A DNA stretch of 64,000 nt from Rhodospirillaceae bacterium (lineage in GTDB: Bacteria > Pseudomonadota > Alphaproteobacteria > CACIAM-22H2), in assembly GCA_022843945.1 (NCBI GenBank), contig JALHMR010000021.1, positions 1 through 64,000 of the forward strand, read 5' to 3'. The notes below the pieces were generated by a model. It had not been told where the DNA came from. It was given only the letters and a program-made list of their open reading frames with translations, and ran no database searches. Every line of letters starts with the position of its first letter. Position 1 is the first letter of the stretch. The translations under genes were made by a program, and so were the position numbers. Of the stretch, positions 7,430 through 55,684 are shown piece after piece.

Positions 7430-7495
7430 AATAATTTTTCTACCTGTACCCGGCGGGCAGAGCTCGTGTCCTCGTTGCACGTAACCCTGTTGCGA

Positions 7496-8404
7496 TCATT
7501 TGCTCTCTTCGCGAAAGCGTGACGGAGTCTTGCCGGTCACCTTGCGGAAGTTGACGGTGAGGTGGCTATGGCTGGAGAACCCTACCCGCGCTGCGATCTC
7601 ACCAATCGTACCATTGGTTTCAATCAAAAGTTCCTTGGCGCGATGCACGCGGCGCTCGATCAGATAGCGATGCGGTGCTAATCCGGTCGACCGCTTAAAC
7701 GTTTGCCCGAAGTGATGCGTGCTGAGATTCGCAACATTCGCGAGATCAGGAAGGCATATGTCAGTGGCGAGATTGGCTTCGATATAGTCGAAAACCTGTC
7801 TTAGCCGGTGCGCTGCGAGGCCGCCGCGTATCCTTAGTCTGGAGTTTGGGACATCGTCGGAATATTGCCGGAAGAGGCGGACCGAGGCCGCGGTGCCAAG
7901 GCTCTCTGCATAGAGCCGTCCGCCGGCGCCGTCTTCCCGCAGCTCCTGCATCAGCAGATCCATCACGTTACTGAGAACCGGATCACGCACGCCTATTTCC
8001 GTGCGCAATGGTCCGGCCTCGATCTCGAAAGCCTGGAGAATGGTCTGCATCAAGAACGCGCGGTCGAGCGCGAAGACCATGATGCGGGGACGCGCATTCC
8101 ATCGCTGAAAAGGCGCGCGCCCAGCATCGTTTACATGGATATCGCCTCGGTTGATCCGGCGATGATAGAGCTGGCCTTCCTCCGAGAGTCGCCATTCCAT
8201 CTCGAAGGACGCGCCGTCGTGCATGGCGATTGTGACTTGGTCGGAGCCGACGCGAAGACCTGGGTTCGGGGCCAACGTACATCGGCTAAACGTGATATCG
8301 CCAAATAACAGACGTCCCGCATAGGCGAGAATCCGGGACGGCGCGACGGTCGAGAAATCGATGAGGACGGCATTTCCACCCTCCGCTCCTATGTTGTCGG
8401 CCAT
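7496..8404 (-). CDS. AraC-family transcriptional regulator
   Basis: A 302-residue protein with two helix-turn-helix units in the last 100 residues (LPDLANVANLSTHHFGQTF and GEIAARVGFSSHSHLTVNF), as in AraC/XylS regulators. The N-terminal 200 residues are a ligand or dimerisation region without a recognised name. It is transcribed towards the helicase operon (convergent) and away from the DUF2285 regulator. A short perfect inverted repeat (8411-8417 / 8424-8430) directly precedes its start and may act in autoregulation. Its target genes are not evident nearby. Confidence 0.88.
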   Translation of the reverse strand: MADNIGAEGGNAVLIDFSTVAPSRILAYAGRLLFGDITFSRCTLAPNPGLRVGSDQVTIAMHDGASFEMEWRLSEEGQLYHRRINRGDIHVNDAGRAPFQRWNARPRIMVFALDRAFLMQTILQAFEIEAGPLRTEIGVRDPVLSNVMDLLMQELREDGAGGRLYAESLGTAASVRLFRQYSDDVPNSRLRIRGGLAAHRLRQVFDYIEANLATDICLPDLANVANLSTHHFGQTFKRSTGLAPHRYLIERRVHRAKELLIETNGTIGEIAARVGFSSHSHLTVNFRKVTGKTPSRFREESK

Positions 8405-8858
8405 GAATAACGCCTCTCTCGTCAGAGGCGATGCCTGCGTCTCCGCCGCGCAGACCTCGCCACTGTGGTCCGATACTTGACCCTCGAGAGCGGACCGATC
8501 TTGGAATTGAGGATGGAGCAGCCCGGATTATTCTCGCGTATAGCGAGAAATTCTATACAACCTCACAACATGAATCTATTTGAGAATTCTGCCCGTTTGA
8601 ATCGCGCATTGCCTTGAAGTCGGCAGTCCGAACGTCCTACCTCGTTAGGCGGATAAAGATGCTGGCACTGGGACGCCAACGCCACAGTCCACTTTTTCCT
8701 GTCTCGGGTATCGATTTTATGCGGCGATTCTGACAACTGCCGGTCGAATCTGACAGCCCCAACAAGGCGAATGCTTATATCCAATGTATCCCAAGCGTTT
8801 GCTGGGGATAATCAAACGCAACTTGGCTGAACGGGGGGACTGGAGGAGATCGTCCCTC
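8405..8858. promoter_or_regulatory. Divergent intergenic region with two inverted repeats
   Basis: The region between the AraC gene and the DUF2285 gene contains no convincing gene. It holds CGCCTCT..AGAGGCG (8411-8430) next to the AraC start, and TTCTCGCGTATAGCGAGAA (8531-8549), a palindrome of operator type. Both are plausible regulator sites for the divergent genes. No clear sigma-70 promoter was recognised. Confidence 0.45.
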
Positions 8859-9749
8859 ATGGCGCGCGCAGAACGCGGATCGTCCAATCTAGAATTAGCC
8901 CGAAGTCCCACCGATCCGTCCCCCACGCCCGATCGCGCCGCTTGGGCGTGGGAATGGTTGCGGCGCAATCCCCACTATCGATCGGCCGTCCGCTGGGCGG
9001 CGCTGCCTGACATCCAGATTCTGCGCCGCACACCGCCGCTCACCGTCCTAACCTTCGCCGAACCGTCCTCATTCGCGCGGGCTTGGGGCTTGATCGCGCC
9101 GGAAGTCCCAGACCGCGCGGCTGGCTCGGCCCAGGTGTTCTGGCGTCCTGACGTCAATCCCGGTGTCCTGGGCGCGCGCGTTGAACCATCCTCGGACGGC
9201 GAGTCGGTAAACCTCATCGAGCTGGCTTGCACAGTGACGGTCCTGCAGCTTCCGGGGGAAGAGCATGTGCGCTTGAGCGACGGTCTGAGGTCCATCCAGT
9301 TTTTCGTGCGGGACGGAACGGTGTTGAATGGCCCGGTGCAGGTACGCTTCGGTATGCCCGGTCACGGCGTCCTCACACCCAGGCTCGACACCATGCGCCG
9401 GTTCGCGGCATTGCTGAGGACCAAGCGATTCCCGCACTCCCTTTTTGCGCCGCCACCCCATGCCGTCTGGTGGGCACAGGCGCTGACCGCGTTCGACGCT
9501 GCGCAGATCGGCCTACCACGCCGCGAGATCGCCGCGCGCCTGTTCGGCGCCGAAGCGGCCGCACAGCACTGGCCGGCGGAGTCCGAATGGATGCGCAGTC
9601 GCGTGCGGCGCGCGATGCAAATGGGGGAGATGCTGGTCAACGGCGGCTATCGCAAAATACTGAATCCTTCGGGCACCCGCCCCAGGGCTACGGAGGACAA
9701 GCCGTCGAACCGGAAACCGCCGACGACGAACGGGCAACCACGCGCCTGA
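8859..9749 (+). CDS. DUF6499/DUF2285 transcriptional regulator, FseA-like
   Basis: A 296-residue protein. The N-terminal part has the DUF6499 pattern AWEWLRRNPHYR, and the C-terminal 90 residues are DUF2285, ending in a DNA-binding-like segment (RRAMQMGEMLVNGGYR). In the Mesorhizobium symbiosis ICE the same domain pair forms FseA, the activator of the excisionase gene, produced there by frameshifting. Here both domains are in one frame. The start at 8859 follows GGAGGAG; an in-frame ATG at 8784 is the alternative. It likely activates excision and transfer genes, perhaps the RdfS-like gene at 34921. The role is inferred. Confidence 0.8.
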   Translation: MARAERGSSNLELARSPTDPSPTPDRAAWAWEWLRRNPHYRSAVRWAALPDIQILRRTPPLTVLTFAEPSSFARAWGLIAPEVPDRAAGSAQVFWRPDVNPGVLGARVEPSSDGESVNLIELACTVTVLQLPGEEHVRLSDGLRSIQFFVRDGTVLNGPVQVRFGMPGHGVLTPRLDTMRRFAALLRTKRFPHSLFAPPPHAVWWAQALTAFDAAQIGLPRREIAARLFGAEAAAQHWPAESEWMRSRVRRAMQMGEMLVNGGYRKILNPSGTRPRATEDKPSNRKPPTTNGQPRA

Positions 9750-9790
9750 AGCCTCGTATCGCACGGCTGATTTCAACTCTGGATCACGGT

Positions 9791-9835
9791 ATGTTCCCCG
9801 TAGTAATGTTCTTCCAGGGGTTGCGGGGAATAACA
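9791..9835. repeat. Inverted repeat upstream of the type III restriction genes
   Basis: ATGTTCCCCG (9791-9800) and CGGGGAATAACAT (9823-9835) form an imperfect inverted repeat in the 163-bp gap between the DUF2285 gene and res. It could be an operator for the restriction-modification genes or a weak terminator of the DUF2285 gene. There is no clean T-run. Confidence 0.4.
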
Positions 9836-9912
9836 TTTTATATTCAGTGGCTTGCGATGGCCTGACCTGTGGTTCCAGGCCGCGGCGGACATAGCGGCTG
9901 GGGGGCTGAGGG

Positions 9913-12900
9913 GTGTCTAGTCTATTTTTCGATCATCCGATTCTCAATTCCCCATACGAGAAGCCCGGAAGGCACTGGGAGCTGGACGAATCTGGTCAGC
10001 CAACCCAGAGAATTCTTGAGCAGCGGCGGCGCGCGTCGTTCATCACGCCTATCCCCAAGCCGAAGAAGCGGAAGGGAAAGACCAAGCAGGCGGAAATCGT
10101 CTTCGACGAAGGGAAAGGTCTTTCCACCGCCAAGCAGCAGTACGACACAACCTCCATTATCAATGAGGTTCGGCAGGCCGTGGATTCCTGGCGATCGTTG
10201 CCGAGTCCGAGCCAATGGCAGGTCACCCCGGAAACCGCACACCTCCTCCAGCATTGGCGCCACCACCAGTTCACCGGCGTTCGTCCCTTCTTCTGCCAGG
10301 TCGAGGCGGTGGAGACAGCGATTTGGCTGACGGAGGTCGCCCCCCACACCACCGCGGGCAAGCGCCTTCTCGAGCTTCTGACCGCCGCAAACAAAGAAGC
10401 CAATCGGGACTTGATGCGCCTCGCGTTGAAGCTCGCGACCGGTGCAGGAAAGACCACCGTCATGGCCATGCTCATCGCATGGCAGACGATCAACGCAGTA
10501 CGACGCCAGAACAGCAAGAACTTCACACGGGGTTTCCTTGTTGTCGCCCCTGGTCTCACGATCAAGGATCGTCTGCGCGTTCTTCAGCCGAACGACCCCG
10601 ACAGCTACTACGCCAGCCGCGAGCTGGTTCCAGCCGACATGCAGGACGAGATCGGGAAGGCCAAGATCGTCATTACCAACTATCACGCCTTCAAGCTGCG
10701 TGAGCGTATGGAGCTGTCCAAAGGCGGACGGCAACTTCTGCAAGGGCGTGGCGGTGAGGAGCTGAATACGCTCGAAACCGAAGGCCAGATGATTCAGCGC
10801 GTCATGCCCGACCTGATGGGCTTGAAGAACATCATGGTCCTGAACGACGAGGCGCATCACTGCTATCGGGAAAAGCCGCCAGAAGAAGACGACGAAGATC
10901 TAAAGGGCGACGACAAGAAGGAGGCCGAAAAACAGAACGAGGCGGCGCGCCTTTGGATTTCAGGCTTGGAAGCAGTCAATCGCAAGATCGGCATCTCTCG
11001 CGTCATCGACCTGTCCGCGACGCCGTTCTTTCTGCGCGGCTCGGGTTACGCCGAGGGCACGTTGTTCCCGTGGACGATGAGCGACTTCTCGCTCATGGAC
11101 GCGATCGAGTGCGGCATCGTTAAGCTGCCGCGCGTGCCGGTAGCGGAGAACATTTCTGGCGGCGAAATGCCGATGTTTCGCGATCTCTGGGAGAACCTGA
11201 AAGACGCCGAGCCCAGGCTTCCGCGCGGCGGACGCTCTATCGCCGGCGACCTCGACCCGCTCAAGCTGCCGACGCTCCTTCAGACCGCGCTCCAGGCTCT
11301 CTATGGCCATTACGAAAAGACCTTCAAGCTCTGGGAAGACAAGAAGATCAAGGTTCCCCCTTGCTTCATCATTGTCTGCCAAAACACTGCAATCTCGAAG
11401 CTCGTGTATGACTTCGTTTCTGGTTTCCATCGCAAGAATGAGGATGGCTCGACGACGTTGGAAAACGGACGGCTCGCCCTCTTCAGAAACTTTGACGAGA
11501 CGACAGGCAATCCGCTTCCACGACCCAATACTCTTCTCATCGATAGTGAGCAGCTCGAAACCGGCGAGGGGTTGGACGCCAACTTCCGACGCATGGCTGC
11601 CGACGAGATCGACCGGTTCCGTCGTGAGATCATCGAACGCACGGGAAATGTGCAGGCGGCCGACAACATCACGGACCAGGACCTCCTGCGTGAGGTTATG
11701 AACACTGTTGGCAAGCACGGACAGTTGGGGGCGAACATTCGGTGTGTTGTCTCGGTCGCCATGCTGACGGAAGGTTGGGACGCGAACACCGTCACTCACG
11801 TTTTGGGTATTCGCGCGTTTAGCACACAGCTCCTGTGCGAGCAGGTCATCGGCCGCGCCCTGCGGCGCCAGTCCTATGAGCTGAATGGCGAAGATCTATT
11901 CGATGTCGAGTACGCCGATGTCTTCGGCATTCCATTCGATTTCACCGCCAAACCGGTTGTCGCGCCTCCGCAGCCGCCGCGAGAGACCATCCAGGTTAAG
12001 GCTGTCCGCCCCGATCGCGATCATTTGGAAATCCGTTTTCCCCGTGTAGAGGGATACCGGATCGAACTCCCCGAAGAGCGCCTGAGCGCGGTGTTCAACG
12101 ATGAGTCGATCCTGGAGCTCAGCCCGGCACTGATCGGTCCGTCGATCACCCAGAATTCCGGCATCATTGGCCAGTCCGAGAATATGAATCTGGAGCACAT
12201 GGGCCACATCCGGCACTCCACGCTCGTATTCAACGTCACCCAGCGGCTGCTCTATACGAAGTGGCGCGATCCCGGCGAAGAACCGAAACTGCATCTATTC
12301 GGACAGCTTAAACGCATCACGAAGCAATGGCTGGATACATGCCTTGTCTGCAAAGGGGGAACGAACCCCGGGCAACTCATGTACCAGGTCCTCGCCGACA
12401 TGGCGTGCGACAAGATTACCGCCGGAATCACACGCGCCTTTATCGGGGATCGTCCGGTCAAGGCGTTGCTCGATCCATATAACCCGACAGGGTCCACACG
12501 GTTCGTGCGCTTCAATACATCGAAGAACGACCGTTGGGAAACGAACGGCCCGCCGCCAAAGAACCACGTAGATTGGGTGATCCTTGATAGCGACTGGGAG
12601 GCTGAGTTTTGTCGGGTAGCCGAGCAGCACCCGAAAGTGGTCGCTTATACCAAGAACCACAATCTCGGCTTCGAGGTGCCCTATCGCTTCCAGGCCGAGA
12701 ACAGGAAATACCGGCCAGACTTCATTGTTCGTCTCGATGACGGTCATGGACCGGACGACCTGCTGAACCTCGTGGTCGAAATCAAGGGCTACCGCGGCGA
12801 GGATGCCAAGGAGAAGAAGGCCACAATGGAAACCTATTGGGTGCCGGGTGTGAATCATCTCGGCACGTATGGTCGCTGGGCCTTCGCCGAATTCACCGAG

Positions 12901-12999
12901 ATCTATCAGATCGAAGCCGATTTCAAAGGAAAGGTTGCAGTCGCGTTCGATCAACTAATCGCATCCGCTGTTGCTTCATCGACGACAAAGAGCAAGTAA
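9913..12999 (+). CDS. res: Type III restriction enzyme, Res subunit
   Basis: A 1028-residue helicase-nuclease. Walker A is ATGAGKTT near residue 175 and DEAH lies in LNDEAHHCY near 311. The second RecA domain has the LTEGWDANTVTH and QVIGRALRRQ motifs. The C-terminus has a PD-(D/E)xK nuclease (PDFIVRL near 935 and VEIKGY near 954). Type III Res subunits translocate or signal along DNA and cut when two Mod-bound, unmethylated sites are oppositely oriented. The start is GTG, in a G-rich context. The gene ends one base before mod. The order res-mod is the reverse of many type III loci. Confidence 0.92.
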   Translation: MSSLFFDHPILNSPYEKPGRHWELDESGQPTQRILEQRRRASFITPIPKPKKRKGKTKQAEIVFDEGKGLSTAKQQYDTTSIINEVRQAVDSWRSLPSPSQWQVTPETAHLLQHWRHHQFTGVRPFFCQVEAVETAIWLTEVAPHTTAGKRLLELLTAANKEANRDLMRLALKLATGAGKTTVMAMLIAWQTINAVRRQNSKNFTRGFLVVAPGLTIKDRLRVLQPNDPDSYYASRELVPADMQDEIGKAKIVITNYHAFKLRERMELSKGGRQLLQGRGGEELNTLETEGQMIQRVMPDLMGLKNIMVLNDEAHHCYREKPPEEDDEDLKGDDKKEAEKQNEAARLWISGLEAVNRKIGISRVIDLSATPFFLRGSGYAEGTLFPWTMSDFSLMDAIECGIVKLPRVPVAENISGGEMPMFRDLWENLKDAEPRLPRGGRSIAGDLDPLKLPTLLQTALQALYGHYEKTFKLWEDKKIKVPPCFIIVCQNTAISKLVYDFVSGFHRKNEDGSTTLENGRLALFRNFDETTGNPLPRPNTLLIDSEQLETGEGLDANFRRMAADEIDRFRREIIERTGNVQAADNITDQDLLREVMNTVGKHGQLGANIRCVVSVAMLTEGWDANTVTHVLGIRAFSTQLLCEQVIGRALRRQSYELNGEDLFDVEYADVFGIPFDFTAKPVVAPPQPPRETIQVKAVRPDRDHLEIRFPRVEGYRIELPEERLSAVFNDESILELSPALIGPSITQNSGIIGQSENMNLEHMGHIRHSTLVFNVTQRLLYTKWRDPGEEPKLHLFGQLKRITKQWLDTCLVCKGGTNPGQLMYQVLADMACDKITAGITRAFIGDRPVKALLDPYNPTGSTRFVRFNTSKNDRWETNGPPPKNHVDWVILDSDWEAEFCRVAEQHPKVVAYTKNHNLGFEVPYRFQAENRKYRPDFIVRLDDGHGPDDLLNLVVEIKGYRGEDAKEKKATMETYWVPGVNHLGTYGRWAFAEFTEIYQIEADFKGKVAVAFDQLIASAVASSTTKSK

Positions 13000-13000
13000 C

Positions 13001-15772
13001 ATGGCCAAAAAATCCACCAAGCCGAAAGCGGCAAAGACCGTCGAGACGCTCAAGCACAGCGAGGACAAGCGGAAGAACATTCCGACCGCCGAGCTTCAAT
13101 CGATCATTCAGCAGGAACAGGAAAATCCTAAAAAGGTGAAATATCTGCGCAATATCGATCTCGATCCTCAGCTCGTATGGCGTGGCAAGGACGAGCAGGA
13201 CTGGAGCGACCTCGTTGTCAACGCGCCGTCGCTCTACATTCAGGAGAAAGTTCACCCGAAGGTTCTAATCGACGACCTGCTCAAGGCGTCGAAAGAACGC
13301 GCTCACGATGAGGGGCAGATAACGCCCGATCTGTTTGCCGATTTCAACGGCATCCCCAAGGGCGTGGATAAGACCGAGTTCTACCAGCACGACCAGAACT
13401 GGTCGAACCGGATGATACTCGGCGATTCACTTCAAGTGATGGCCAGCCTTGCTGAGCGCGAGGGGCTGCGCGGCAAGGTCCAGTGCGTCTATTTCGATCC
13501 GCCCTACGGCATCAAATTCAACAGCAACTTCCAATGGAGCACAACTGATCGATCTGCCAAGAGCGAGGGCAAAGATTACATCACTCGCGAGCCTGAGCAA
13601 GTTAAGGCGTTCAGAGATACCTGGCGCGACGGAGTCCACAGTTACCTAACCTATCTCCGTGACAGACTCACAGTCTCTAGGGACCTACTAACGGAGAGCG
13701 GATCAATATTCGTTCAGATTGGCGATGAGAATGTACACCGTCTCCGCGCTCTTTTGGACGAGGTTTTTGGCGAAGAGAACTTCGCCGCCATGATCACCTT
13801 TAGAAAGAAAATGATGCCACTTGGTTCCGATGTGGCGGAAGGCGTCAGCGATTACATCCTGTGGTACGCGCGCTCACGAAAAAACATAAAGAGCCGCCCT
13901 CTTTTTTATCAAAAAGACCCGGATGAGGATGGCGTGTGGACATTTGCGCTGTTCCCCGATGGTCGCCGAATTCCTTTGTCCGACTTGAACTCAATTCCCG
14001 AAGGGGCATCGGTATATCAATCAATCTCGTTGCTACCAGCGCAATATAGACCGAATCAAGATTTTGAAATTCAGTTTGAGGGGCGGGCGTGGCAGCCGCC
14101 GAAGCGGAGCTGTTGGAAGAGTGACTCTGAAGGGATGCACCGCCTCATTAAAGCCAACCGCATTCATCCAAGTGGCAACACTCTTAGATACATACTTCGC
14201 CATGCCGACTATCCGGTGGGCCGGATAACAAATCTTTGGGCCGATGCCACTGCCGCGGGCCAGCAAATCTACGTCGTACAGACAAATGTGGACGTGGTTA
14301 AGAGGTGCCTCCTGATGGCCACTGATCCGGGTGATTTGGTGTTGGACCCCACTTGTGGATCGGGCACAACGGCCTATGTGGCTGAACAGTGGGGACGACG
14401 TTGGATCACGATCGACACTTCAAGAGTTTCGCTCGCATTGGCTCGGTCCAGAATCATGGGCGCACGTTATCCATATTATTACCTATCGGACTCGCGAGAG
14501 GGGCAGCAGAAGGAAGGTGAGGTTACGCGCACCGCTCCAAGCTCTAAACCAGTATATGGCAATGTCAGGCATGGCTTTGTATTGGAGCGCGTCCCGCACA
14601 TAACGTTAGGTTCTATTGGCCGGAATACCGAAATTGATGTTGTGTGGGACAAATGGCAGCCGACGTTAGAAGCACTGCGCGAAAAGTTGAATTTGGCTCT
14701 TAAGACTGGTTGGAAGGAATGGGAGGTGCCTCGCGAGCCAGATTCGGGATGGCCCGAGTCCGCCAGAAAAGATCTTGAAGAATTTTGGACGGCACGTACC
14801 AAACGCCAGAAGGAAATCGACGCCTCCATTGCCGCCAAGGCTGAGACCGAGTACCTCTACGACAAGCCTTATGAGGACAAGAAAAAGGTCCGCGTGGCTG
14901 GCCCCTTTACGGTCGAAAGCCTGAGCCCCCACCGCATCCTGGGCGTGGACGAGAACGACGAGTTGATTGATGCGCTGCGGGAAGATGGAGCGGAGTTTGG
15001 TGCGAAACGCTCATTTCCTCAGATTATCCTTGAAAACCTCAAGATTGCCGGTGTGCAGCAGGCCCACAAGGACGACCGGATCACCTTTGCGTCGCTAATG
15101 CCGTGGCCGGGCGCATTGATCTGCGGCGAAGGGAGGTATCTAGAGGGCGACATTGAGAAGCGGGCGGCCATATTTATCGGGCCTGAGTTCGGAACCGTCC
15201 AGCGCGCCGATCTCGTTGAGGCCGCGCGGGAGGCTGGCGACGCTGACTTCGATGTCCTGATCGCCTGTTCGTTCAACTACGAAGCCCACACTACGGAGTT
15301 CAACAAGCTCGGCCGCATTCCAGTCCTCAAGGCGCGCATGAATGCCGATCTCCATATGGCCGAAGACTTGAAGAATACTGGCAAGGGCAACTTGTTCGTG
15401 ATCTTCGGAGAACCGGACATCGATCTCATCACCGAGAAGGACGGTAAACTCCAGGTCAAAGTGAATGGCGTGGACGTGTTCAAGCCACAGACGGGCGAAG
15501 TCGTCAGCGATGGCGCCGACGGCATCGCCTGTTGGTTTGTCGACACGGACTACAACTCGGAAAGCTTTTTTGTCCGTCACGCTTACTTCCTCGGTGCCAA
15601 CGATCCCTACGGTGCGTTGAAGACAACCCTCAAAGCCGAGATTGACGCCGAAGCCTGGGCTACCCTCAACAGCGACACCTCACGGCCTTTCGACAAGCCC
15701 AAATCCGGCCGTATCGCCGTTAAGGTCATAAATCACCTCGGCGACGAAGTGATGAAAGTGTTTCGCGTATGA
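13001..15772 (+). CDS. mod: Type III site-specific DNA methyltransferase, Mod subunit
   Basis: A 923-residue beta-class amino-methyltransferase. DPPY (motif IV, in YFDPPYGIKF) is near residue 166, before the AdoMet motif DPTCGSGTT near 449. The intervening 280 residues include the target-recognition region. The C-terminal 400 residues are longer than in classical Mod proteins. The ATG at 13001 is preferred because it immediately follows the res stop. The middle part (about 13700-14700) reads visibly more AT-rich than the flanks, as if the recognition domain had been exchanged. It methylates adenine and gives sequence specificity to Res. Confidence 0.92.
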   Translation: MAKKSTKPKAAKTVETLKHSEDKRKNIPTAELQSIIQQEQENPKKVKYLRNIDLDPQLVWRGKDEQDWSDLVVNAPSLYIQEKVHPKVLIDDLLKASKERAHDEGQITPDLFADFNGIPKGVDKTEFYQHDQNWSNRMILGDSLQVMASLAEREGLRGKVQCVYFDPPYGIKFNSNFQWSTTDRSAKSEGKDYITREPEQVKAFRDTWRDGVHSYLTYLRDRLTVSRDLLTESGSIFVQIGDENVHRLRALLDEVFGEENFAAMITFRKKMMPLGSDVAEGVSDYILWYARSRKNIKSRPLFYQKDPDEDGVWTFALFPDGRRIPLSDLNSIPEGASVYQSISLLPAQYRPNQDFEIQFEGRAWQPPKRSCWKSDSEGMHRLIKANRIHPSGNTLRYILRHADYPVGRITNLWADATAAGQQIYVVQTNVDVVKRCLLMATDPGDLVLDPTCGSGTTAYVAEQWGRRWITIDTSRVSLALARSRIMGARYPYYYLSDSREGQQKEGEVTRTAPSSKPVYGNVRHGFVLERVPHITLGSIGRNTEIDVVWDKWQPTLEALREKLNLALKTGWKEWEVPREPDSGWPESARKDLEEFWTARTKRQKEIDASIAAKAETEYLYDKPYEDKKKVRVAGPFTVESLSPHRILGVDENDELIDALREDGAEFGAKRSFPQIILENLKIAGVQQAHKDDRITFASLMPWPGALICGEGRYLEGDIEKRAAIFIGPEFGTVQRADLVEAAREAGDADFDVLIACSFNYEAHTTEFNKLGRIPVLKARMNADLHMAEDLKNTGKGNLFVIFGEPDIDLITEKDGKLQVKVNGVDVFKPQTGEVVSDGADGIACWFVDTDYNSESFFVRHAYFLGANDPYGALKTTLKAEIDAEAWATLNSDTSRPFDKPKSGRIAVKVINHLGDEVMKVFRV

Positions 15773-27713: not shown

Positions 27714-28613
27714 TTAGATCGATTGCACCGTCAACCAACTCCAAATGCGATGCCAGAAACTCCCGTTTTGCGGCGCGGCCTCGTTGACTGCCACGATGCG
27801 CGACATGTGCTTCCGGATATCGAATGTCGGATCGCCGGTCTCGTTCGCCGGATGATGCGGGCACGGCCGATCTGCGAGCGCCGCCATCCGGGCACTCAGG
27901 GAAACTGTTCCGCGATTGCCGTCATATTCGAGATAGACGAACTCGGCGGGTTTGGGAAACCAAGGTGTCAGAATCTGCGCGACCAGTCCGACCGCCGTTG
28001 AGGCCAGCACGCCGTTCGACCAGACAACCTGCGGGCGCGCACCAGCCGCGCCGTACTTCTCGGCTTCTCGCGCCAGCCGTTCGTCCGTGATGAGCCCGCA
28101 ACAACGCAAGCATGGCTTGCCCGGCATCGACAAGATGACTTGGCCGGCGACCAAAAAATGGCGGGGCGCGACTTCATGCACATCCATGCCGATATCGATA
28201 TAGGGTATCAAATGGCGTCGGGCGAAACGTTCAAGTTGGTCGCGCTCCTTGAAGGAGTCGACCGCGCCAACGATGACGTTGCAGCGTCTTAGCGCGTCGA
28301 TGGCGTCATGCCAGCTACCGCGCACGGGATGAATCCGCGCCAGCGGCTGAAGCCCCTTGATGACGCGCTCCGCAATCAGAACTTTGGCCAGCTCCCGCTC
28401 CACATCGGCCAAAGTGCCGCCGATAAGCCTGTTGGTGTTGGTCAGGTCGATATGATCGGGATCGACCGGGACGTACCCACCGATTCCAATATGTGCCGTC
28501 TGCTGCGCTGCGTGGGAGCCGCCGCCGCCAATGCCTACGAGGCCGATGGTTGCGGCCTCGAGGATCGCTTCGCTGTCAGGCCCGAGGAAGCTTTGGCGAG
28601 CAAGCCGTGTCAT
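27714..28613 (-). CDS. E1-like (ThiF/MoeB) activating enzyme of a ubiquitin-like system
   Basis: A 299-residue ThiF-fold adenylyltransferase. The nucleotide loop is GIGGGGSH (27-34), followed by HIDLTNTNR (54-62) as in E1 enzymes. A C168-x-x-C171-C172 cluster and C251-P-H-H suggest a zinc site. It would adenylate the C-terminal glycine of the ubiquitin-like protein. The start overlaps the JAB gene in ATGA. It is the last gene of the four-gene minus-strand operon. The catalytic cysteine is not obvious; C111 and the CxxCC region are the only candidates. Confidence 0.9.
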   Translation of the reverse strand: MTRLARQSFLGPDSEAILEAATIGLVGIGGGGSHAAQQTAHIGIGGYVPVDPDHIDLTNTNRLIGGTLADVERELAKVLIAERVIKGLQPLARIHPVRGSWHDAIDALRRCNVIVGAVDSFKERDQLERFARRHLIPYIDIGMDVHEVAPRHFLVAGQVILSMPGKPCLRCCGLITDERLAREAEKYGAAGARPQVVWSNGVLASTAVGLVAQILTPWFPKPAEFVYLEYDGNRGTVSLSARMAALADRPCPHHPANETGDPTFDIRKHMSRIVAVNEAAPQNGSFWHRIWSWLTVQSI

Positions 28614-29113
28614 GCAGCGCTCCAATGGCGCGTTGGCATACCGACTTCTGTGAATTCGGTGATCGGAAGGTATGCCCGTCTCCGCTCGACCCACATCTGG
28701 CCGCGAGCGGAATCGCTGCTGAGCACGATCGCGCCGTGCGGCATCTGCGGTGCGACCTTGAAGAAGTCGGGTATGAACTTCGCGTTCTCGCGGATGTCGA
28801 CCCCGCTGAACTGTGGAAAACCGCGACCTCCGTGGGAGTGTACGTGGAAGAGCGCGATGCCCGCCTGCATCGCCCATTGCAGCGCGCCACGGATCGCGTT
28901 CGGCCCCATCATCGCGCCGACCGAGGGATCGCGCAGGTAGTCTTGGTCTGCGACCGGCCGATAATCGCGGGCGAGGACGAGCAGATCGTCGCCGTCGGCG
29001 GAGAGGCCGGCCGAGATGAAGCCGACGCGCTCATGCGCGAACGGATGCCGACGATGCAGGTCTTGTCTCACCGTAGCCGCCAGCGCCACCGTGATCTTGA
29101 AATGCACTTTCAT
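28610..29113 (-). CDS. JAB/MPN-domain metallopeptidase (deubiquitinase-like)
   Basis: A 167-residue JAMM protease. An N-terminal glutamate (E28 in ERVGFISAG) is followed by H92-S-H94-x8-S103-x-x-D106, the zinc-binding JAMM motif. In bacterial ubiquitin-like operons it trims the precursor tail and can remove conjugates. The ubiquitin-like protein here ends GGSS, so removal of two residues would expose GG. It overlaps both the E2 and the E1 genes by 4 bp. Confidence 0.92.
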   Translation of the reverse strand: MKVHFKITVALAATVRQDLHRRHPFAHERVGFISAGLSADGDDLLVLARDYRPVADQDYLRDPSVGAMMGPNAIRGALQWAMQAGIALFHVHSHGGRGFPQFSGVDIRENAKFIPDFFKVAPQMPHGAIVLSSDSARGQMWVERRRAYLPITEFTEVGMPTRHWSAA

Positions 29114-29439
29114 GCGACGGCCCGCAGATGGGCGCAGAGCATGGCGGTCCAGCTCAGCGTGGCCGCGACATCCTTCCAGGACGGTGCCCACCAAGACTTT
29201 CCCGCGACATAGTGCTGCGCCCAATTGTTGCCGCGTCCCCCAATCTGGCGCTCGAAGAACAGCCGGGTCGCATAGCCGCTATGGGCCTGCGGCACGAGGA
29301 GCAGGTTCATGGTCTCGTCGCGTCCCGCTGCTTTGAATCTGAACTCCGGCAGCAGCACGGCAGGCTGGCCGCCCTCTTGGAGGAGGACGGCCTTGTCATG
29401 CAGCGCCTGCATGCGCTGCATTTCTGTTGCCGCATCCAT
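29110..29439 (-). CDS. E2-like protein of the ubiquitin-like system (Prok-E2 family E type)
   Basis: A 109-residue protein between the multi-ubiquitin and JAB genes. It is assigned as E2-like by position and by the LPEFRF, HSGYATRLFF and WAQHY pattern (H53, W73, H76). The start at 29439 overlaps the upstream stop (TGATG); an in-frame ATG at 29457 is the alternative. Its only cysteine is C102, seven residues from the end, so the usual mid-domain catalytic cysteine is absent or relocated. It is therefore either a non-canonical conjugating enzyme or an adaptor. Confidence 0.75.
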   Translation of the reverse strand: MDAATEMQRMQALHDKAVLLQEGGQPAVLLPEFRFKAAGRDETMNLLLVPQAHSGYATRLFFERQIGGRGNNWAQHYVAGKSWWAPSWKDVAATLSWTAMLCAHLRAVA

Positions 29440-30170
29440 CAGGACGATCCCCCGCACGGGACCTGGCTGAAGAACTTCATTCCATCCTTCACTCGCAACT
29501 TCGCATTGGGCTTCAGCAGCTCCAACTGGCCCTCAGCGTTGACCAGGTTGAGGAGGTAGCCCGGTTCGACGCCCAGCACTTCGATCAATTGTTCCGTGGA
29601 GTAGACGCCCGCCGGGATCTTCTTCTCGGCGCCATCGATGCAGACCGTGACGAGGCGCTTGCGGGTCCGCAGCCGTTCCGTCCCGGCGTCGCTCAACTTG
29701 ACGCGATCATCCGGGCCGAGGACCCGATCTTCCGCGTCCTCACGCTCCAGCACCAGAACATGGTCCTCATCGACATCCGCGACTTCGCGCAACGTTGGCT
29801 CGTTGATCGTCGGCGCTCCCCATTCGTAGCCGCGGCCATCCACCGTGAAGCGGAAGAGGCGGTCGCTCTTGAAGGCTCGGAACGCCTCGATGCCGGGCTT
29901 ACGGAGATCGACCGCCTCATCGAGGCCGATGGACCGCGTGCCGCGCCGGACGAGCTGGATCAAGACATGCTCGTCTGCCGGCACGAATCCGGCTTCCGTC
30001 AGAATCTGCCGGCCGTCCGGCACCGGGTCCTGGAACATCACCCGCGTATCGTTCACCACGGCGGCAAACGCGCCGCTGTCACCGCGCTCGGCGGCAGGTT
30101 CGGAGGCGGCGCTGCCCATCCGGTCCTCGGTGAGGGCGCCGCTCACGGCGCTGTCGTCATCGGTCCTCAT
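29439..30170 (-). CDS. Triple ubiquitin-like (multiubiquitin) protein
   Basis: A 243-residue protein: a charged N-terminal tail (1-34) followed by three tandem ubiquitin-like domains, at about 35-100, 104-170 and 172-236. Repeats two and three each begin with a strand of the F/V-T-V-x-I/V-D-G type and end in a hydrophobic strand. The C-terminus is C239-G-G-S-S243, so GG is masked by two residues that the JAB peptidase could remove. The start follows GAGG by 8 bp on the minus strand. It is the first gene of the operon and the probable modifier or storage polyprotein. Confidence 0.88.
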   Translation of the reverse strand: MRTDDDSAVSGALTEDRMGSAASEPAAERGDSGAFAAVVNDTRVMFQDPVPDGRQILTEAGFVPADEHVLIQLVRRGTRSIGLDEAVDLRKPGIEAFRAFKSDRLFRFTVDGRGYEWGAPTINEPTLREVADVDEDHVLVLEREDAEDRVLGPDDRVKLSDAGTERLRTRKRLVTVCIDGAEKKIPAGVYSTEQLIEVLGVEPGYLLNLVNAEGQLELLKPNAKLRVKDGMKFFSQVPCGGSS

Positions 30171-30225
30171 ATCGCGTACCTCGCTTTGCAAATCGTCGCG
30201 CCCACCCGGACCCGACCGTCTCGCA

Positions 30226-30300
30226 TAATTAACAGGGCGCGCTTGATAAATCAAGCAAACTCTATGCGCGCTTGATATTCGAAGCAAGACGGCGTAGAAA
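30226..30300. promoter_or_regulatory. Divergent promoters with two XRE-type operators
   Basis: The minus-strand promoter towards the ubiquitin-like operon has TTGATT (30254-30249), 17 bp, TAATTA (30231-30226). The plus-strand promoter towards the XRE gene has TTGATA (30272-30277), 17 bp, TAGAAA (30295-30300). Dyads GCTTGATAAATCAAGC (30241-30256) and GCTTGATATTCGAAGC (30270-30285) cover the two -35 boxes and lie 29 bp apart. A repressor bound here would control both directions. Confidence 0.7.
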
Positions 30301-30339
30301 ATTGAGTGGGATCAACATGTTCGGCGGGAGGCCACCGTC

Positions 30340-30732
30340 ATGCCGACACCTACCGAGAGGAGTTCCGTGAAAGTTACGTTGGGTCAGTATCTCGCGTCGA
30401 TTCGTGCCGATCGCCGCCTGTCGCTACGCCAGGTCGAGGAAGCCACTAACAGGGAAGTCTCAAACGCCTATCTCAGCCAAATCGAAAACGACCGGATTCA
30501 GCAGCCGTCGCCTCACATTCTCCACGCCTTGGCGGAGCTCTATAAGGCCGACTACGAACGCCTGATGGAGATGGCGGGTTATATCGCGCCGAACAAGGCG
30601 CGCGCAGCCGATCAGCGTCATGGCCGTGTCGCCACGTTCGCCGAGCACAATCTGACCTCGGAAGAGGAGGCGGAATTGATGGAGTACCTCCAATTCATTC
30701 GCAGCAGGAAACGCCCGAATGACAAAGGCTGA
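30340..30732 (+). CDS. XRE-family transcriptional repressor
   Basis: A 130-residue protein with an N-terminal XRE helix-turn-helix (LGQYLASIRADRRLSLRQVE, then SNAYLSQIENDRIQQPS). The start ATG follows GGGAGG by 8 bp. It overlaps the ImmA/IrrE gene by 14 bp, forming the classical repressor-antirepressor protease pair, and is divergent from the ubiquitin-like operon. The two dyads at 30241-30285 are the likely operators. It probably represses itself and the operon until cleaved or displaced. Confidence 0.9.
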   Translation: MPTPTERSSVKVTLGQYLASIRADRRLSLRQVEEATNREVSNAYLSQIENDRIQQPSPHILHALAELYKADYERLMEMAGYIAPNKARAADQRHGRVATFAEHNLTSEEEAELMEYLQFIRSRKRPNDKG

Positions 30733-31660
30733 CGACAGCAGTCTCGATCCCGACCAGCGCCGCGCGGTCGAGGAGCGGGCGAAACAGCTCCTTGACCGCG
30801 CCGCCGCCTGGGGTCGATTTCCGACTCCCATCGAAGACATTCTTGGTGCTGCGCAAGTGGTCGTCGCCCCGACCAGCGCGTTCGATCCGGTCCAGATCAT
30901 GGCCTATCTGCGCCGCAAGGCGGCGGATGCGGCCGCGACGCTCAAATCCGCTATCTCGAAAGTCTTTGGCATCTGTGACGCGGAAGAACATGTCATCCAT
31001 ATCGACGACACGGTTTCCGAATCGAAGCAGACCTTCCTCAAGCTGCACGAAACCGGACATCATGAGCTGCCGACCCACCGCAAGCTCTTTCGGTTCTTCC
31101 AGGACTGCGAGAAGACCTTGGCACCGGAAATCTCCGACCTATTCGAGCGCGAGGCCAATAATTTCGCCCGCTTCGCCCTTTTCCAGGGCGGCAAGTTCGG
31201 CGAGGTCGCTGCCGACTACGATATGGAGATCAAGACGCCGATGAAGCTCGCCAAGAAGTTCGGCGCCTCAATCTACGCCGCCTGCCGCGAGTTTGCGCGA
31301 ACGCATCACCGAGCCTGCGTCGTCTATGTTCTGGAACCGATCCAGTATGCGCCCGGCGCCGGCGCCCAAGCGGCGGTACGCCGGATCGAACCGTCCATAT
31401 CTTACGAGGCGCAGTTCGGCTCCCCGATCGATACCGTCATCACGCTGGATCACCCGTTGGGCCGCCTCCTTCCCATTGGGCGGCGCATGACGCGGCCGAC
31501 CACGCTGTCGATCAAGGATCGCAATGGCGTTGCCCATGAATGCGTCGCGGAAGCCTTCGACACGACGTTTAATGTCGTCATCCTTCTTTATCCCGTGAAG
31601 GCATTGACAGCTTCTACCGTGATCCTGCCCGCCGGGTTTCAGGTGCGCCCGGCCTTGTAG
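30719..31660 (+). CDS. ImmA/IrrE-type metallopeptidase
   Basis: A 313-residue protein with the zinc motif HETGH at about residues 110-114 and the downstream REANNFARF segment (the third ligand region) seen in ImmA/IrrE proteases. The C-terminal 120 residues are extra. In ICEBs1 the ImmA protease cleaves the ImmR repressor on stress. Overlap with the XRE gene suggests the same partnership here, with the ubiquitin-like operon as one output. The regulatory role is inferred. Confidence 0.9.
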   Translation: MTKADDSSLDPDQRRAVEERAKQLLDRAAAWGRFPTPIEDILGAAQVVVAPTSAFDPVQIMAYLRRKAADAAATLKSAISKVFGICDAEEHVIHIDDTVSESKQTFLKLHETGHHELPTHRKLFRFFQDCEKTLAPEISDLFEREANNFARFALFQGGKFGEVAADYDMEIKTPMKLAKKFGASIYAACREFARTHHRACVVYVLEPIQYAPGAGAQAAVRRIEPSISYEAQFGSPIDTVITLDHPLGRLLPIGRRMTRPTTLSIKDRNGVAHECVAEAFDTTFNVVILLYPVKALTASTVILPAGFQVRPAL

Positions 31661-31683
31661 CGGGGGGATAGAACGGGGACAAA

Positions 31684-31703
31684 AGCGGCCGCTTCCGGCC
31701 GCT
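31684..31703. repeat. Perfect hairpin between the ImmA/IrrE gene and the next gene
   Basis: AGCGGCCG and CGGCCGCT flank the 4-base loop CTTC. It lies in the 58-bp gap before the gene at 31719 and lacks a T-run. It may be a processing or attenuation hairpin, or an operator. Confidence 0.5.
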
Positions 31704-31718
31704 AGGGACAAGGCAGCG

Positions 31719-32660
31719 ATGCTGGAAGCCACGCCAGAAGAAACCGACCAGATTGTTAGCTACATGGCGTCGCAGGCGCCCGATCTGACCGTCGAGTTTC
31801 TGCAGAAAGTCTATTCCGAAAACGTCCTCGACCATCGCCATGACGTGTGGGACGTGCATACCAATGTCGATCGCTGGTGGGTCATCACGAACCCCACCAA
31901 CCTCTATTCCCAAGCGCAGTTCCCGAACATGGATCTCGCCCTCACCTTCCATGTGGGCCTCTGCCTGCGCATCCCGCGCAGCGAAAAGCCGAAGCTGGGC
32001 GATTTACCGGTCGAACCGTTCATGCAGTGCTTCCGCTATCTTTCCGAAGCGTCCGACGCCCTGTCGCATGCCCAAGAGGTTGCGGACTATCAGGCCATCG
32101 GAGTGCGTTGCCGGGAGTCACTGCTCGCTTTCATCGACGCCGCGCAGAAAGTTGTTCCCTGGACCGCTGCTGATCCGCCCAAACGAGCCGATTTCAAAGC
32201 ATGGGTTGATCATGTTTGCGGGACCGTCCTCTCCGGCCCGTCACAAAAGGATCGCCGCCAGCTCTTCAAGACGTTGCTCGACAGCGCCTGGGGCTTCTCG
32301 AATTGGCTGACCCATACGAAAAGCTCGAAATGGCACGACGCGGAAGCCGCGACATCCACGACCGAACACGCCGTTTCGCTCTGCATCTCTGCTGTCATTC
32401 AACATATTCGCGGCGTTCCCGAAGCCTGTCCCGCTTGCGGATCGCATCGGTTGTCGCCTCAGCGCGCGGTCGATCCACAAAGCCCCGAGATCGAATGGGA
32501 GAGGCCGGCCTGCATGAAGTGCGATTGGGTCGGCACGCCGGTCCGTATCAACCGGGTACCGGGCATGTTGTCCGCGACGGATTCGCCGCCGCCCGAGGGC
32601 GAGTGCATTGTTCCGACGGTCCCGCTCCGGCAATTGGACAGACCCGGACAACCGAAGTAA
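31719..32660 (+). CDS. Hypothetical protein with C-terminal zinc ribbon
   Basis: A 313-residue protein with helical N-terminal 220 residues of no recognised family. A C-terminal zinc ribbon has CPACGSHRL and CMKCDWVG (about residues 232-270), followed by a proline-rich tail. It is downstream of the XRE-ImmA pair and probably in the same transcript. It converges with the HNH-type gene, 6 bp apart. The function is unknown; membership of the ubiquitin-like module is possible but unproven. Confidence 0.7.
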   Translation: MLEATPEETDQIVSYMASQAPDLTVEFLQKVYSENVLDHRHDVWDVHTNVDRWWVITNPTNLYSQAQFPNMDLALTFHVGLCLRIPRSEKPKLGDLPVEPFMQCFRYLSEASDALSHAQEVADYQAIGVRCRESLLAFIDAAQKVVPWTAADPPKRADFKAWVDHVCGTVLSGPSQKDRRQLFKTLLDSAWGFSNWLTHTKSSKWHDAEAATSTTEHAVSLCISAVIQHIRGVPEACPACGSHRLSPQRAVDPQSPEIEWERPACMKCDWVGTPVRINRVPGMLSATDSPPPEGECIVPTVPLRQLDRPGQPK

Positions 32661-32666
32661 CGGCGG

Positions 32667-33770
32667 CTACGCCAGCTTTCTGTAGGCGTCCGCAAGCTCC
32701 GCGGCATGATCGAGCTGAAGTTGGCGATATGCCGTATCGCCCGCGCCGGGCTCCTTCGGGTCAACCCATTCATATCTCAGCGCGTTAAACAGCCGGATCT
32801 GAATGTCGTAGATGCTCGCCGCGATATCCTTCTGCATTGCGCAGTCGCCGCCCACCACCGCGTCGAACTCGATCGACGCGGAAGGGTCGGCGATCACCTC
32901 GACCCGATCCATAAACTGACGAAACAACGCCCCTTGGCGGCTCTGTCCCTGCAATGTCCGCTCATACAGACGCGAATCGAAAGCATTGGTGTGACCATAG
33001 AACCCGCCCTTGAAAGACGGGTCATCGGAAGGCAGCCTGATCGGCTGATAAAGCCACACGACCGGCTTGAAGAGCTTCAGATCGGTGACCGGATTGCTGA
33101 TCTCGGCGGCGTATCCGATGCCGTCGAGTTTCAGCATCCCGCTGTTTTCGCCGCCCATCAAAAGCGTCATCGATTGCGGATGCGGCATGCCGCAGCCTCG
33201 TGAACAGAAGAAATCAGCCGATACGTTCAGGAGCAGAATGTCGTTGATGCGGCAGCCGAAGCAACTCGGCATGTCGTTGAAGATGAGACTGTCGCCGCCC
33301 AACAGGTTGATGCCCTTGTTGTCGCTGTCGAAGACATATACCGCCAGCATCCGGTCTTTCTGTGCGACACGGGTGGATATGTGGAAGTGCGGCGTGATCG
33401 CGACGGGATGATTTTCGATCATATGGCGCGTCAGCCAAACGCCGATCCGCACTTTATCAAGCCAATCCAGAAGCGCCACGTAGGCAGACGCTGGCAAGGT
33501 TTCGCGCCGCTGCAACGCTGCCACATAGGTCTTAATTTGCGCTTCAAGCGCCGCATATTTGTTATTGCATCCGTCGCAGGCTGGGGCGACGAAATTCGAC
33601 CAGGAATATCGGATGGGCGCTTTGTCTTTCTTGAAGTTCTGGCCGAAAGTCACCACGCGAAGCGGATCGCCGGTCATTTCAAGAAGCCAATAGGGGATTA
33701 CATGCTCTCGCGTTTTGTCGTTCGGAGCGCAGCCGCAGAAGATGCAGAGCCTATTTTCGGATAGAGACAT
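32667..33770 (-). CDS. HNH-endonuclease-like protein
   Basis: A 367-residue protein. The N-terminus has CIFCG, REHVIPYWLL and APACDGCNNKY, the CxxC..H..CxxCNN arrangement of HNH nucleases with structural zinc. The rest is unassigned and cysteine-containing (CSRGCG). An upstream in-frame GTG at 33782 is an alternative start. It faces the zinc-ribbon gene. It may be a nuclease effector of the neighbouring module or a stand-alone defence gene. Confidence 0.75.
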   Translation of the reverse strand: MSLSENRLCIFCGCAPNDKTREHVIPYWLLEMTGDPLRVVTFGQNFKKDKAPIRYSWSNFVAPACDGCNNKYAALEAQIKTYVAALQRRETLPASAYVALLDWLDKVRIGVWLTRHMIENHPVAITPHFHISTRVAQKDRMLAVYVFDSDNKGINLLGGDSLIFNDMPSCFGCRINDILLLNVSADFFCSRGCGMPHPQSMTLLMGGENSGMLKLDGIGYAAEISNPVTDLKLFKPVVWLYQPIRLPSDDPSFKGGFYGHTNAFDSRLYERTLQGQSRQGALFRQFMDRVEVIADPSASIEFDAVVGGDCAMQKDIAASIYDIQIRLFNALRYEWVDPKEPGAGDTAYRQLQLDHAAELADAYRKLA

Positions 33771-34407
33771 TTCTAGTTCCACAGCCGACGTTACAAACTA
33801 GCATGATCGCAAAGCGAGGCACGAGCGCCCTGCTGCCGACGCTCCAATTTGCCTGCCGGTCACACAGCTATCGTCGATCACCTCGTCATTCTCGTGCCCA
33901 ACGCCACGACTTCGCTTTGGCACCAGCACGGCCAGTTGCAGCGCTTGAAGCGCTCCGTTGCGATTTCCGGAAGTTTCGCCCAGCCAAATCCAGCCGCAGG
34001 CGCACGAACGCCCTGTTGACGCGGAAGGGAAGGGGGCGGCGGCTCCTGGCGATAGGGGTGCCGCTATCGCACATGACTCGGCTTTCGCGTCTTTTCGGCT
34101 CCGGGCGCGTCTTGATGACGACAGGGGCAGACATGCTTCTCCATCTCCGTCGCAGGACCAGTCCCTGCTCTTTGGCGATGACCTATGGGCGTCGTCGTCC
34201 CCTGGTGAAACCGTCGCGTCAGACTTTTTTCCCCTGCGCCTGCGGCGCATTCCTCGCGGACGCTGCGCTCCAAAAAAGTCCTCCGCTCAGGTCCTTCGCT
34301 GCGCTGCGGCCCCTCCATTTCATTCCGGGGTTCACGGGTCCGAGCGCGCCCATGAACGGTCCGCCATCGCAGGGGATGGTCCCCGCGACAGATTAGGAGA
34401 TCGAATC
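33771..34407. other. Long gene-free region before the transfer genes
   Basis: About 640 bp without a supported gene; open frames here are arginine-rich and lack start signals. It contains an inverted repeat GACTTTTTT (34222-34230) / AAAAAAGTC (34272-34280). A 23-bp segment at 34290-34312 matches 19 of 23 bases of 23823-23845 inside the ardC-upstream repeat. It ends with AGGAG before the DUF736 start. A regulatory or replication-related role is suspected. Confidence 0.5.
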
Positions 34408-51505: not shown

Positions 51506-51593
51506 ACGTTTTCGGGTCATTTCCAGATATGATGCGCCGCAGTTGCTGTTTCATATTGAAAAATGGACGAATATGGGCCATTTTTCGATATGA
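51491..51593. promoter_or_regulatory. Two inverted-repeat operators upstream of abiEi
   Basis: The first dyad has arms CATATTGGAAAAT (51491-51503) and CATTTCCAGATATG (51518-51531). The second has arms CATATTGAAAAATGG (51552-51566) and CCATTTTTCGATATGA (51578-51593). The two are homologous. AbiEi antitoxins are known to repress their own promoter by binding paired inverted repeats, so these are the likely operators. Confidence 0.75.
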
Positions 51594-52417
51594 TGTTGCA
51601 ACCTCGCTCCAGCCTCGCCGACTACGTAATGCAACTCCAGGCGGAAGGGAAAATCTCCTTCACGCCCGAAGACGCAATCGCGCCTCTCGGCATCAGCAAG
51701 GCGGCATTTCTCAAGGCGGCCGCGCGTCTCCAGAAGCGTCACATGCTGCTCAACCCACGCCAAGGATTCTACGTGGCGGTGCCGCCGCAATACATGTCGT
51801 GGGCGGCGCCACCGCCCAGTTGGTACATCGATGCACTGATGCGCCATGAGGGCAGGCCCTACTACGTGGGCCTGCTCAAGGCGGCCGAGCTGCATGGCGC
51901 CGCGCACCAGGCAGTCATGGAATTCCAGGTGATCACGGACCGGCAGCTCCCGAAGATTCGTGCCGGCCGCTCCTGGATTACTTTTCATTTTCGCAAGGAC
52001 ATGAGTGGCGTGAGCGCTGGCATCGTCGAGCGGAAGACCGACACGGGCAGCATGAAAATATCCTCGGCCGAGCTGACGGCTTTGGACCTGCTGCGCTACA
52101 TGCCTGTCGTCGGCGGAGTCGACGCCGTCGCGACGATCCTTGCCGAGCTCGCTGAGAATCTGGACAGCGCGAAACTTGCGGACCTTGCACCGCACTTCGA
52201 GCGTGCCCCCGTGCAACGGCTTGGCTATTTGCTCGATCATCTCGGCCATGGAGACAAGGTGGCGGCGTTGCACAATGTTCTCTTCGAGAAGCGGATGCCA
52301 CCCTGGACGTCGCTTGAGCCGGAGAAGCGCGGAATCGAGCATGAAGGTGCAACGCCAGCCCAGCGCAACGAGCGATGGCGCGTCCGTGTGCGCCGCAATC
52401 CTGATATCGACGAATGA
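51590..52417 (+). CDS. abiEi: AbiEi-type antitoxin (type IV toxin-antitoxin)
   Basis: A 275-residue protein. The N-terminal winged helix includes LADYVMQLQAEGKISFTPED and LGISKAAFLKAAARLQ. The DUF4095-like C-terminal antitoxin region has LLDHLGHGDKV. It represses the operon and counters the AbiEii nucleotidyltransferase. The start is uncertain: ATG at 51590 or 51593 lies in the second operator, and an in-frame ATG at 51563 and an internal one at 51629 are possible. It overlaps abiEii by 4 bp. Confidence 0.85.
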   Translation: MMLQPRSSLADYVMQLQAEGKISFTPEDAIAPLGISKAAFLKAAARLQKRHMLLNPRQGFYVAVPPQYMSWAAPPPSWYIDALMRHEGRPYYVGLLKAAELHGAAHQAVMEFQVITDRQLPKIRAGRSWITFHFRKDMSGVSAGIVERKTDTGSMKISSAELTALDLLRYMPVVGGVDAVATILAELAENLDSAKLADLAPHFERAPVQRLGYLLDHLGHGDKVAALHNVLFEKRMPPWTSLEPEKRGIEHEGATPAQRNERWRVRVRRNPDIDE

Positions 52418-55363: not shown

Positions 55364-55683
55364 CGCAGCGCCCAAGCAACTTTCATTACGACCAAGGCGT
55401 CGAGCTGCACGCGACACCGTCGAGACCCGAGGAACCTGGAGCGAAGCCGGTTCTCTATCTCGGTCTCGCTGGCGCGGCTTTAGCGGCCCTCTGCTGTGCT
55501 GGCCCGGTGTTGATCTCGCTTCTCGGCGTGGTCGGATTGTGGTCGTGGGGTGGATGGTTCGGTTACACCTCGTTGCCGTTGCTGGCCGTTATGGCGCTCC
55601 TTGGCGTCGGCGTATGGATTCTAAGGCGGAGGCGGCGTGCAACCGGGTGCTGCACGACAGTAGTTGACAAGGAAGGGGTTTGA
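55360..55683 (+). CDS. merF: MerF-like mercury transporter
   Basis: A 107-residue protein with two membrane segments. A vicinal pair C45-C46 (ALCCAGPVL) is in the first segment and a second pair (TGCCTTV) is near the C-terminus, as in MerF. It is longer than usual because of a 30-residue N-terminal tail. The start overlaps the merB stop. Confidence 0.82.
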   Translation: MTQRPSNFHYDQGVELHATPSRPEEPGAKPVLYLGLAGAALAALCCAGPVLISLLGVVGLWSWGGWFGYTSLPLLAVMALLGVGVWILRRRRRATGCCTTVVDKEGV

Positions 55684-55684
55684 G

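Follow-up and report, generated by a model that had tools for sequence, protein, structure and literature searches.

A four-gene Bub-type ubiquitin-like operon probably controlled by a CapH/CapP-type switch and a conserved operator pair in a Rhodospirillaceae bacterium

Row 6e of a 2006 survey of bacterial ubiquitin-like systems (Iyer et al., PMC1779556) comprises operons for a polyubiquitin-like protein, a cysteine-less E2/RWD-like protein, a JAB protein and an E1; the E2s of this row were then termed inactive, and in some members the E1 carries a domain other than JAB. Bub operons, represented by BubA, BubB and BubCD of Citrobacter, frequently have a regulatory module alongside, with 219 of 544 adjoining CapW or CapH plus CapP, and phage protection by them has not been demonstrated (EMBO J 2026, PMC13373217). 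The peptidase PprI senses single-stranded DNA (ssDNA), as does CapP/CapH (PMC10904395). Here we analyse a 64,000-nucleotide stretch from a Rhodospirillaceae bacterium (contig JALHMR010000021.1, positions 1 to 64,000; the window), in which genes for a ubiquitin-like protein (Ubl), an E2-fold protein, a JAB protease and a ThiF/E1 enzyme are divergent from genes for an XRE repressor and an ImmA/IrrE metallopeptidase. The arrangement is best, and probably correctly, explained as a class 6e polyUbl Bub operon under a CapH/CapP-type switch. Neither the operon nor the wiring of the switch is new, since Bub operons beside CapW or CapH plus CapP have been reported (PMC13373217). What sequence comparison adds is a conserved pair of operators, and the lack of a conserved catalytic cysteine in the E2-like protein, or in the E1 beyond a zinc-type set.

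The operon lies on the reverse strand with its genes head-to-tail in the order Ubl, E2-fold protein, JAB and ThiF/E1. A BubA-like triple Ubl (30170-29439, 243 amino acids, ATG start) is followed by a BubB-like E2/UEV-fold protein (29439-29110, 109 amino acids; TGATG junction), a BubC-like JAB/JAMM protease (29113-28610, 167 amino acids; ATGA junction) and a BubD-like ThiF/E1 adenylating enzyme (28613-27714, 299 amino acids; ATGA junction). The CapH-like XRE repressor (30340-30732, 130 amino acids) and the CapP/PprI-like ImmA/IrrE metallopeptidase (30719-31660, 313 amino acids) are encoded on the forward strand by genes that also overlap. An earlier note on this DNA had described overlapping Ubl, E2, JAB and E1 genes divergent from XRE and ImmA/IrrE, and this layout was confirmed, with successive overlaps of 1, 4 and 4 bp. 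The starts of the longest open reading frames at TTG 30287 (Ubl), TTG 29224 (JAB) and ATG 28877 (E1) were rejected as too far 5'.

The Ubl matches Pfam Multi_ubiq (5.7e-30) and, in a PDB search, solved multi-ubiquitin proteins (9cd2, 2.8e-21; 9d59, 5.4e-20; 8u38, 1.4e-15; also 9d5b). Domains 1 and 2 match Multi_ubiq and domain 3 itself does not; the domain-3 orthologues of the related loci L008 and L010 match it at 3.2e-4 and 4.7e-5, slightly below the curated cut-off, and profile comparison gives a weak link between domains 2 and 3. Judged from these matches the protein has three tandem Ubl domains, the 2006 definition of class 6e being two or three. Its C terminus reads ...PCGGSS and the tail of its relatives G[G/H/Q]SS, so that a diglycine (GG) remnant need not be general; one may guess that JAB trims off the final serine pair. 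Of 398 genomes sampled from the phylum, 15 have Multi_ubiq, the host genome among them, and a search of viral contigs for the Ubl found nothing.

The E1 matches Pfam ThiF (4.9e-23) and retains the GxGGGxS and N-x-NRL motifs. With a ten-sequence profile, its best solved relative was Citrobacter BubCD (3.5e-23), followed by TcdA, MoeB, ThiF and UBA5, and no chain named Bil was among the 60 solved E1 relatives listed. JAB has no Pfam match and a weak PDB match solely to Citrobacter BubCD (E 0.48); its catalytic-type residues E28, H92, H94, S103 and D106, and also H90, are invariant in all aligned relatives. On a related contig, L026, the same JAB and E1 are fused in one frame, as in BubCD, and such fusion, found in many members of class 6e, is not obligatory, because row 6e lists E1s with another domain instead. 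Among ten relatives the invariant cysteines of the E1 are C168, C171 and C251 only, which together with H253 form a C-x2-C/C-x-H pattern that we take to be the zinc site of ThiF-type enzymes. Since C111 is absent from one relative and the other cysteines are of the zinc type, no invariant E1 cysteine is left for a thioester. A search of 385 genomes of the class for this E1 returned the host genome only.

For the 109-residue protein, Pfam, NCBIfam and PADLOC gave no family match, and no PDB sequence matched convincingly. Its AlphaFold2 model (predicted local distance difference test score, pLDDT, 91.9) was closest to Citrobacter BubB (9eae_C), with a Foldseek probability of 0.90 and TM-scores of 0.68/0.59 at an E-value of only 0.89, and with a VIA Z-score of 9.5 over 105 residues at 3.3 Å; the next structural matches were UEV domains such as that of TSG101 (Z 6.9). 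A homologue in locus L028 that aligns to the protein matches Pfam Prok-E2_E (1.4e-6), and direct profile comparison of the two was weak (26% probability). It is this bridge, with the model and its BubB match, that gives the protein its E2 fold, and in this sense the earlier label 'E2' was right. The label had also implied an ordinary transfer enzyme yielding GG conjugates, and for this the sequences give no support. Ten residues are invariant among ten relatives (P31, L48, Y56, R59, N72, W73, W83, S87, H104 and L105), and no conserved cysteine was found among them; the sole cysteine of the window protein, in AMLCAHL, is replaced by Ser, Leu, Gly or Ala in the others. With zinc-type E1 cysteines and a G[G/H/Q]SS tail as well, neither a thioester relay nor a GG remnant can be assumed from the sequences.

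On these sequence and model comparisons, we assign the operon to the Bub family, class 6e polyUbl, because the E1 is nearest BubCD, the E2-like model is nearest BubB and JAB and E1 are fused in L026 as in BubCD. It shares with Bub operons such as that of Citrobacter a multi-domain Ubl, a BubB-like E2 fold, a JAB, a BubCD-like E1 and the frequent control by CapH plus CapP or CapW, and differs from them in having four separate genes, in the small size of its E2-like protein (only 109 amino acids) and in that both this protein and JAB lie below Pfam detection. The earlier note had set the system beside Bil-type ones and had thought a multiubiquitin version under a protease-controlled switch deserving of attention; the closest relatives of its E1 and E2 are Bub proteins, however, operons of the multi-Ubl class were already on record in 2006 (PMC1779556), and the wiring is that already reported for 219 of 544 Bub operons (PMC13373217).

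The XRE protein matches Pfam HTH_31 (1.3e-11) and PADLOC capH (2.9e-5), and its SNAYLSQ motif is invariant in ten homologues. ImmA matches Pfam Peptidase_M78 (1.6e-6) and PADLOC capP (6e-13), with HETGH at residues 110-114 and with H110, E111, H114 and E145 invariant in its relatives. An HTH repressor and an HExxH metallopeptidase thus stand beside an immune-type operon and diverge from it, as in the CapH plus CapP modules of the cyclic oligonucleotide-based antiphage signalling system (CBASS) and other immune operons, and as in PprI/DdrO and ImmA/ImmR, where an XRE repressor likewise adjoins an ImmA/IrrE protein. The present switch differs from these in forming a subfamily of its own that is tied to Ubl operons, in its inverted pair of GCTTGACATACTTAGC-like operators with starts 29 bp apart, and in that ssDNA-triggered cleavage is here presumed. 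By analogy with CapP and PprI, DNA damage is the likely trigger. By HExxH spacing, K103 and F106 of ImmA fall at the ssDNA-contacting R85 and F88 of PprI; these positions are presumably generic for M78 peptidases, and the correspondence was not counted as evidence.

Two 16-bp sites, Operator 1 (GCTTGATAAATCAAGC, 30241-30256) and Operator 2 (GCTTGATATTCGAAGC, 30270-30285), lie between the divergent genes. Operator 1 covers the −35 element of the predicted Ubl promoter (30254-30225, reverse strand; −35 TTGATT at 30254-30249, 18-bp spacer, −10 AATTAT at 30230-30225), and Operator 2 that of the predicted XRE-ImmA promoter (30272-30300, forward strand; −35 TTGATA at 30272-30277, 17-bp spacer, −10 TAGAAA at 30295-30300). 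The earlier note had placed dyads over both −35 boxes at exactly these coordinates, and the predicted promoters agree. The dyad at 30270-30285 is an imperfect palindrome with GCTT..AAGC arms only, and fits the family operator. When the sequences between the divergent genes were aligned for the window, L008 and L009, the starts of the two sites proved to be 29 bp apart in all three. A matrix trained on these six sites was applied to eight held-out loci, each with 2000 dinucleotide shuffles as a control. An inverted pair at 28-30 bp was found in seven of the eight, none of the 2000 shuffles reaching any of them, and Deinococcus was the sole held-out locus without it; the seven are not fully independent, because L019, L020 and L025 resemble one another. 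A ninth locus added later, A. pusense L062, also has the pair. Together, 19 sites give the consensus GCTTGACATACTTAGC, in which the outer GC, TTGA and AGC hardly vary.

The pair is absent from the Ubl operons that lack this XRE family (L010-L015). In the window the sole high-scoring pair scores 37.0 against 7.0 for the next best, and the host genome holds a single exact pair; the single-site pattern gave 25 matches in that genome against 19 for a reversed control, which indicates no clear wider regulon. A blind search for the pair pattern in the 385 genomes of the class returned four: the host genome, a genome denoted G248, which is a true second case with genes for XRE and ImmA, and two in which no regulator was detected. 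The outer sites hold TTGACA-like hexamers suitably spaced from −10-like hexamers on both sides, and in most loci a −10 hexamer with at least four of six bases matching stands 16-18 bp away from these sites, against ∼11% of background positions. A repressor bound to the outer sites would thus cover both −35 boxes. Hence, the dyads behave in comparison as conserved sites and look like real operators, to which we infer that the XRE protein binds. No description of the pair was found in the literature, in a search that did not include the CapH/CapP paper, and it is hence not claimed as new.

When ImmA alone was used as a tblastn query against 72,556 plasmids, 12 records reached at least 80% coverage, representing 11 distinct plasmids (NZP2077 was deposited twice), and an E1 operon, in one of several layouts, stood beside XRE-ImmA in every one. 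The Ubl gene was detected in ten of the 11, the exception being Deinococcus, where a short first operon gene matched no model. Plasmids of Methylovirgula and Bradyrhizobium have counterparts of all six genes at 51-68% identity, in the divergent arrangement seen here. Below 80% coverage the link is weaker: A. fabrum has a Ubl operon nearby and M. gilvum has none. Among 23 genomes of the order, ImmA was found in the host genome only. These results support the broader claim of the earlier note that a ubiquitin-like conjugation-type operon lies under an XRE-ImmA switch.

We propose that in unstressed cells an XRE dimer would occupy the two operators and block both divergent −35 boxes, silencing the Ubl operon and its own gene. 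By the precedent of CapP and PprI, DNA damage or phage attack would generate ssDNA and activate ImmA, which, as in CapP/CapH and PprI/DdrO, would cut the repressor and release both promoters. The triple-Ubl modifier would then be trimmed by JAB and adenylated by the ThiF/E1, and the E2-fold partner would carry it to targets. Such transfer probably proceeds without the ordinary relay from an E1 to an E2 cysteine, since neither the E2-like protein nor, beyond the zinc-type set, the E1 has a cysteine that is conserved throughout. Attachment to targets with help from the E2 fold appears more likely than assembly without conjugation, and a stress or anti-phage response carried by a mobile element is our guess at the role. 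A compact four-gene Bub with separate E1, JAB and E2-like proteins would be convenient for reconstituting a pathway without the usual cysteines, and the operator pair opens the regulatory half to direct testing and provides a sequence signature by which other operons controlled by this switch could be sought.

Several observations weigh against this interpretation. Regulator and operon are separable, in that the closely related four-gene operon of L014 has an Xre/RES toxin-antitoxin pair instead, and that of L013 has neither XRE-ImmA nor Xre/RES directly alongside; conversely, the short contig of G248 (L054, 1430-1640) bears the operator pair and XRE-ImmA and lacks a Ubl gene. The Bub systems studied have JAB fused to E1, and here the two are encoded separately. 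The CapH and CapP matches derive from a 2023 set of hidden Markov models, the CapH match being modest, and a single-sequence model of ImmA reached a pLDDT of 36, too low for use, so that a C-terminal sensor domain in ImmA is putative; the ssDNA trigger and XRE cleavage are arguments from homology.

The switch could instead be the excision and transfer control of an integrative and conjugative element (ICE), as ImmR/ImmA is in ICEBs1, its place beside the Ubl operon being accidental. Control of ICEs by ImmR/ImmA modules is documented (PMC10233336), and the window carries a relaxase, a coupling protein and VirB4-, VirB11-, TrbL-, TrbG- and TrbI-type genes, which upholds the conjugative context in the earlier description of the operon as 'on an ICE'; the ICE itself is plausible rather than proven. 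With the one operator pair of window and genome lying between XRE and Ubl, however, and the same switch beside Ubl/E1 operons in all 11 plasmids, a chance association appears improbable. Still less probable, in our view, is that the operon acts against phage in the manner of Bil, its Ubl being conjugated by way of thioesters to structural proteins of the phage. The bilABCD operon has the same four roles in the gene order Ubl-E2-JAB-E1, 8u38, a multi-Ubl relative of solved structure, bears the name BilA, and the Bil E2 has a conserved catalytic cysteine. Here, by contrast, there are three Ubl domains, the only cysteine in the E2-like protein varies among relatives, both E1 and E2 are nearest Bub proteins in sequence and fold, and Bil is missing from the solved E1 relatives listed.

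With the switch acting as proposed, it is quite conceivable, if not our first choice, that the E2-like protein serves as an inactive scaffold of the UEV/RWD type while adenylation and handover of the Ubl fall to the E1 alone, or that the Ubl works mainly by assembling rather than by conjugation. The lack of a conserved cysteine, the rank of UEV domains directly after BubB and the 2006 description of class 6e E2s as inactive (PMC1779556) all favour such a role, whereas the invariant JAB catalytic residues and the G[G/H/Q]SS tail point to processing and release of the Ubl C terminus, and the invariant Ser87 of the E2-like protein could be catalytic. More tentatively, and on balance unlikely, the operon may perform damage-induced tagging with no catalytic cysteine in E1 or E2, through Ser87 or a scaffold role and by a chemistry unlike that of Citrobacter Bub.

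Further observations were made at related loci. In L012 (3806-4838) and L014 (3702-4798) an Xre/MbcA and RES toxin-antitoxin pair occupies the divergent slot of XRE-ImmA, and a pair comprising an ATPase and an S8 (subtilisin-type) peptidase recurs beside Ubl operons (L008, 8577-11944; L009, 8585-11964; L019, 1-2935; L025, 1-2924). In L054 of G248, the operator pair and XRE-ImmA are divergent from small unidentified genes. Next to the switch in L009, a serine protease gene (3764-4531) is preceded by a lone site (3633-3648) that scores like a true operator (19.1), and the gene may be part of this regulon. On the viral contigs L033, L058 and L061 a related XRE and the operator pair are found at the contig ends, and other contigs with the same XRE miss one or both sites, as if broken there.

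In the window, two uncharacterised genes lie 3' of ImmA: 31719-32660, with no homologue in related loci, and 32667-33782, with a sub-threshold HNH match only. Upstream, at 2595-15769, a PLD protein, an SNF2 helicase, a ResIII-type protein and a type III methyltransferase (PADLOC MTase_III, 1359 bits) make up a defence-like gene set typical of defence islands. An AbiEi/AbiEii toxin-antitoxin pair lies at 51563-53283 and a second AbiEii gene at 59678-60739, and between them an alkylmercury lyase (MerB) and a pyridine nucleotide-disulphide oxidoreductase (54695-57115) probably form a mercury-resistance cassette.

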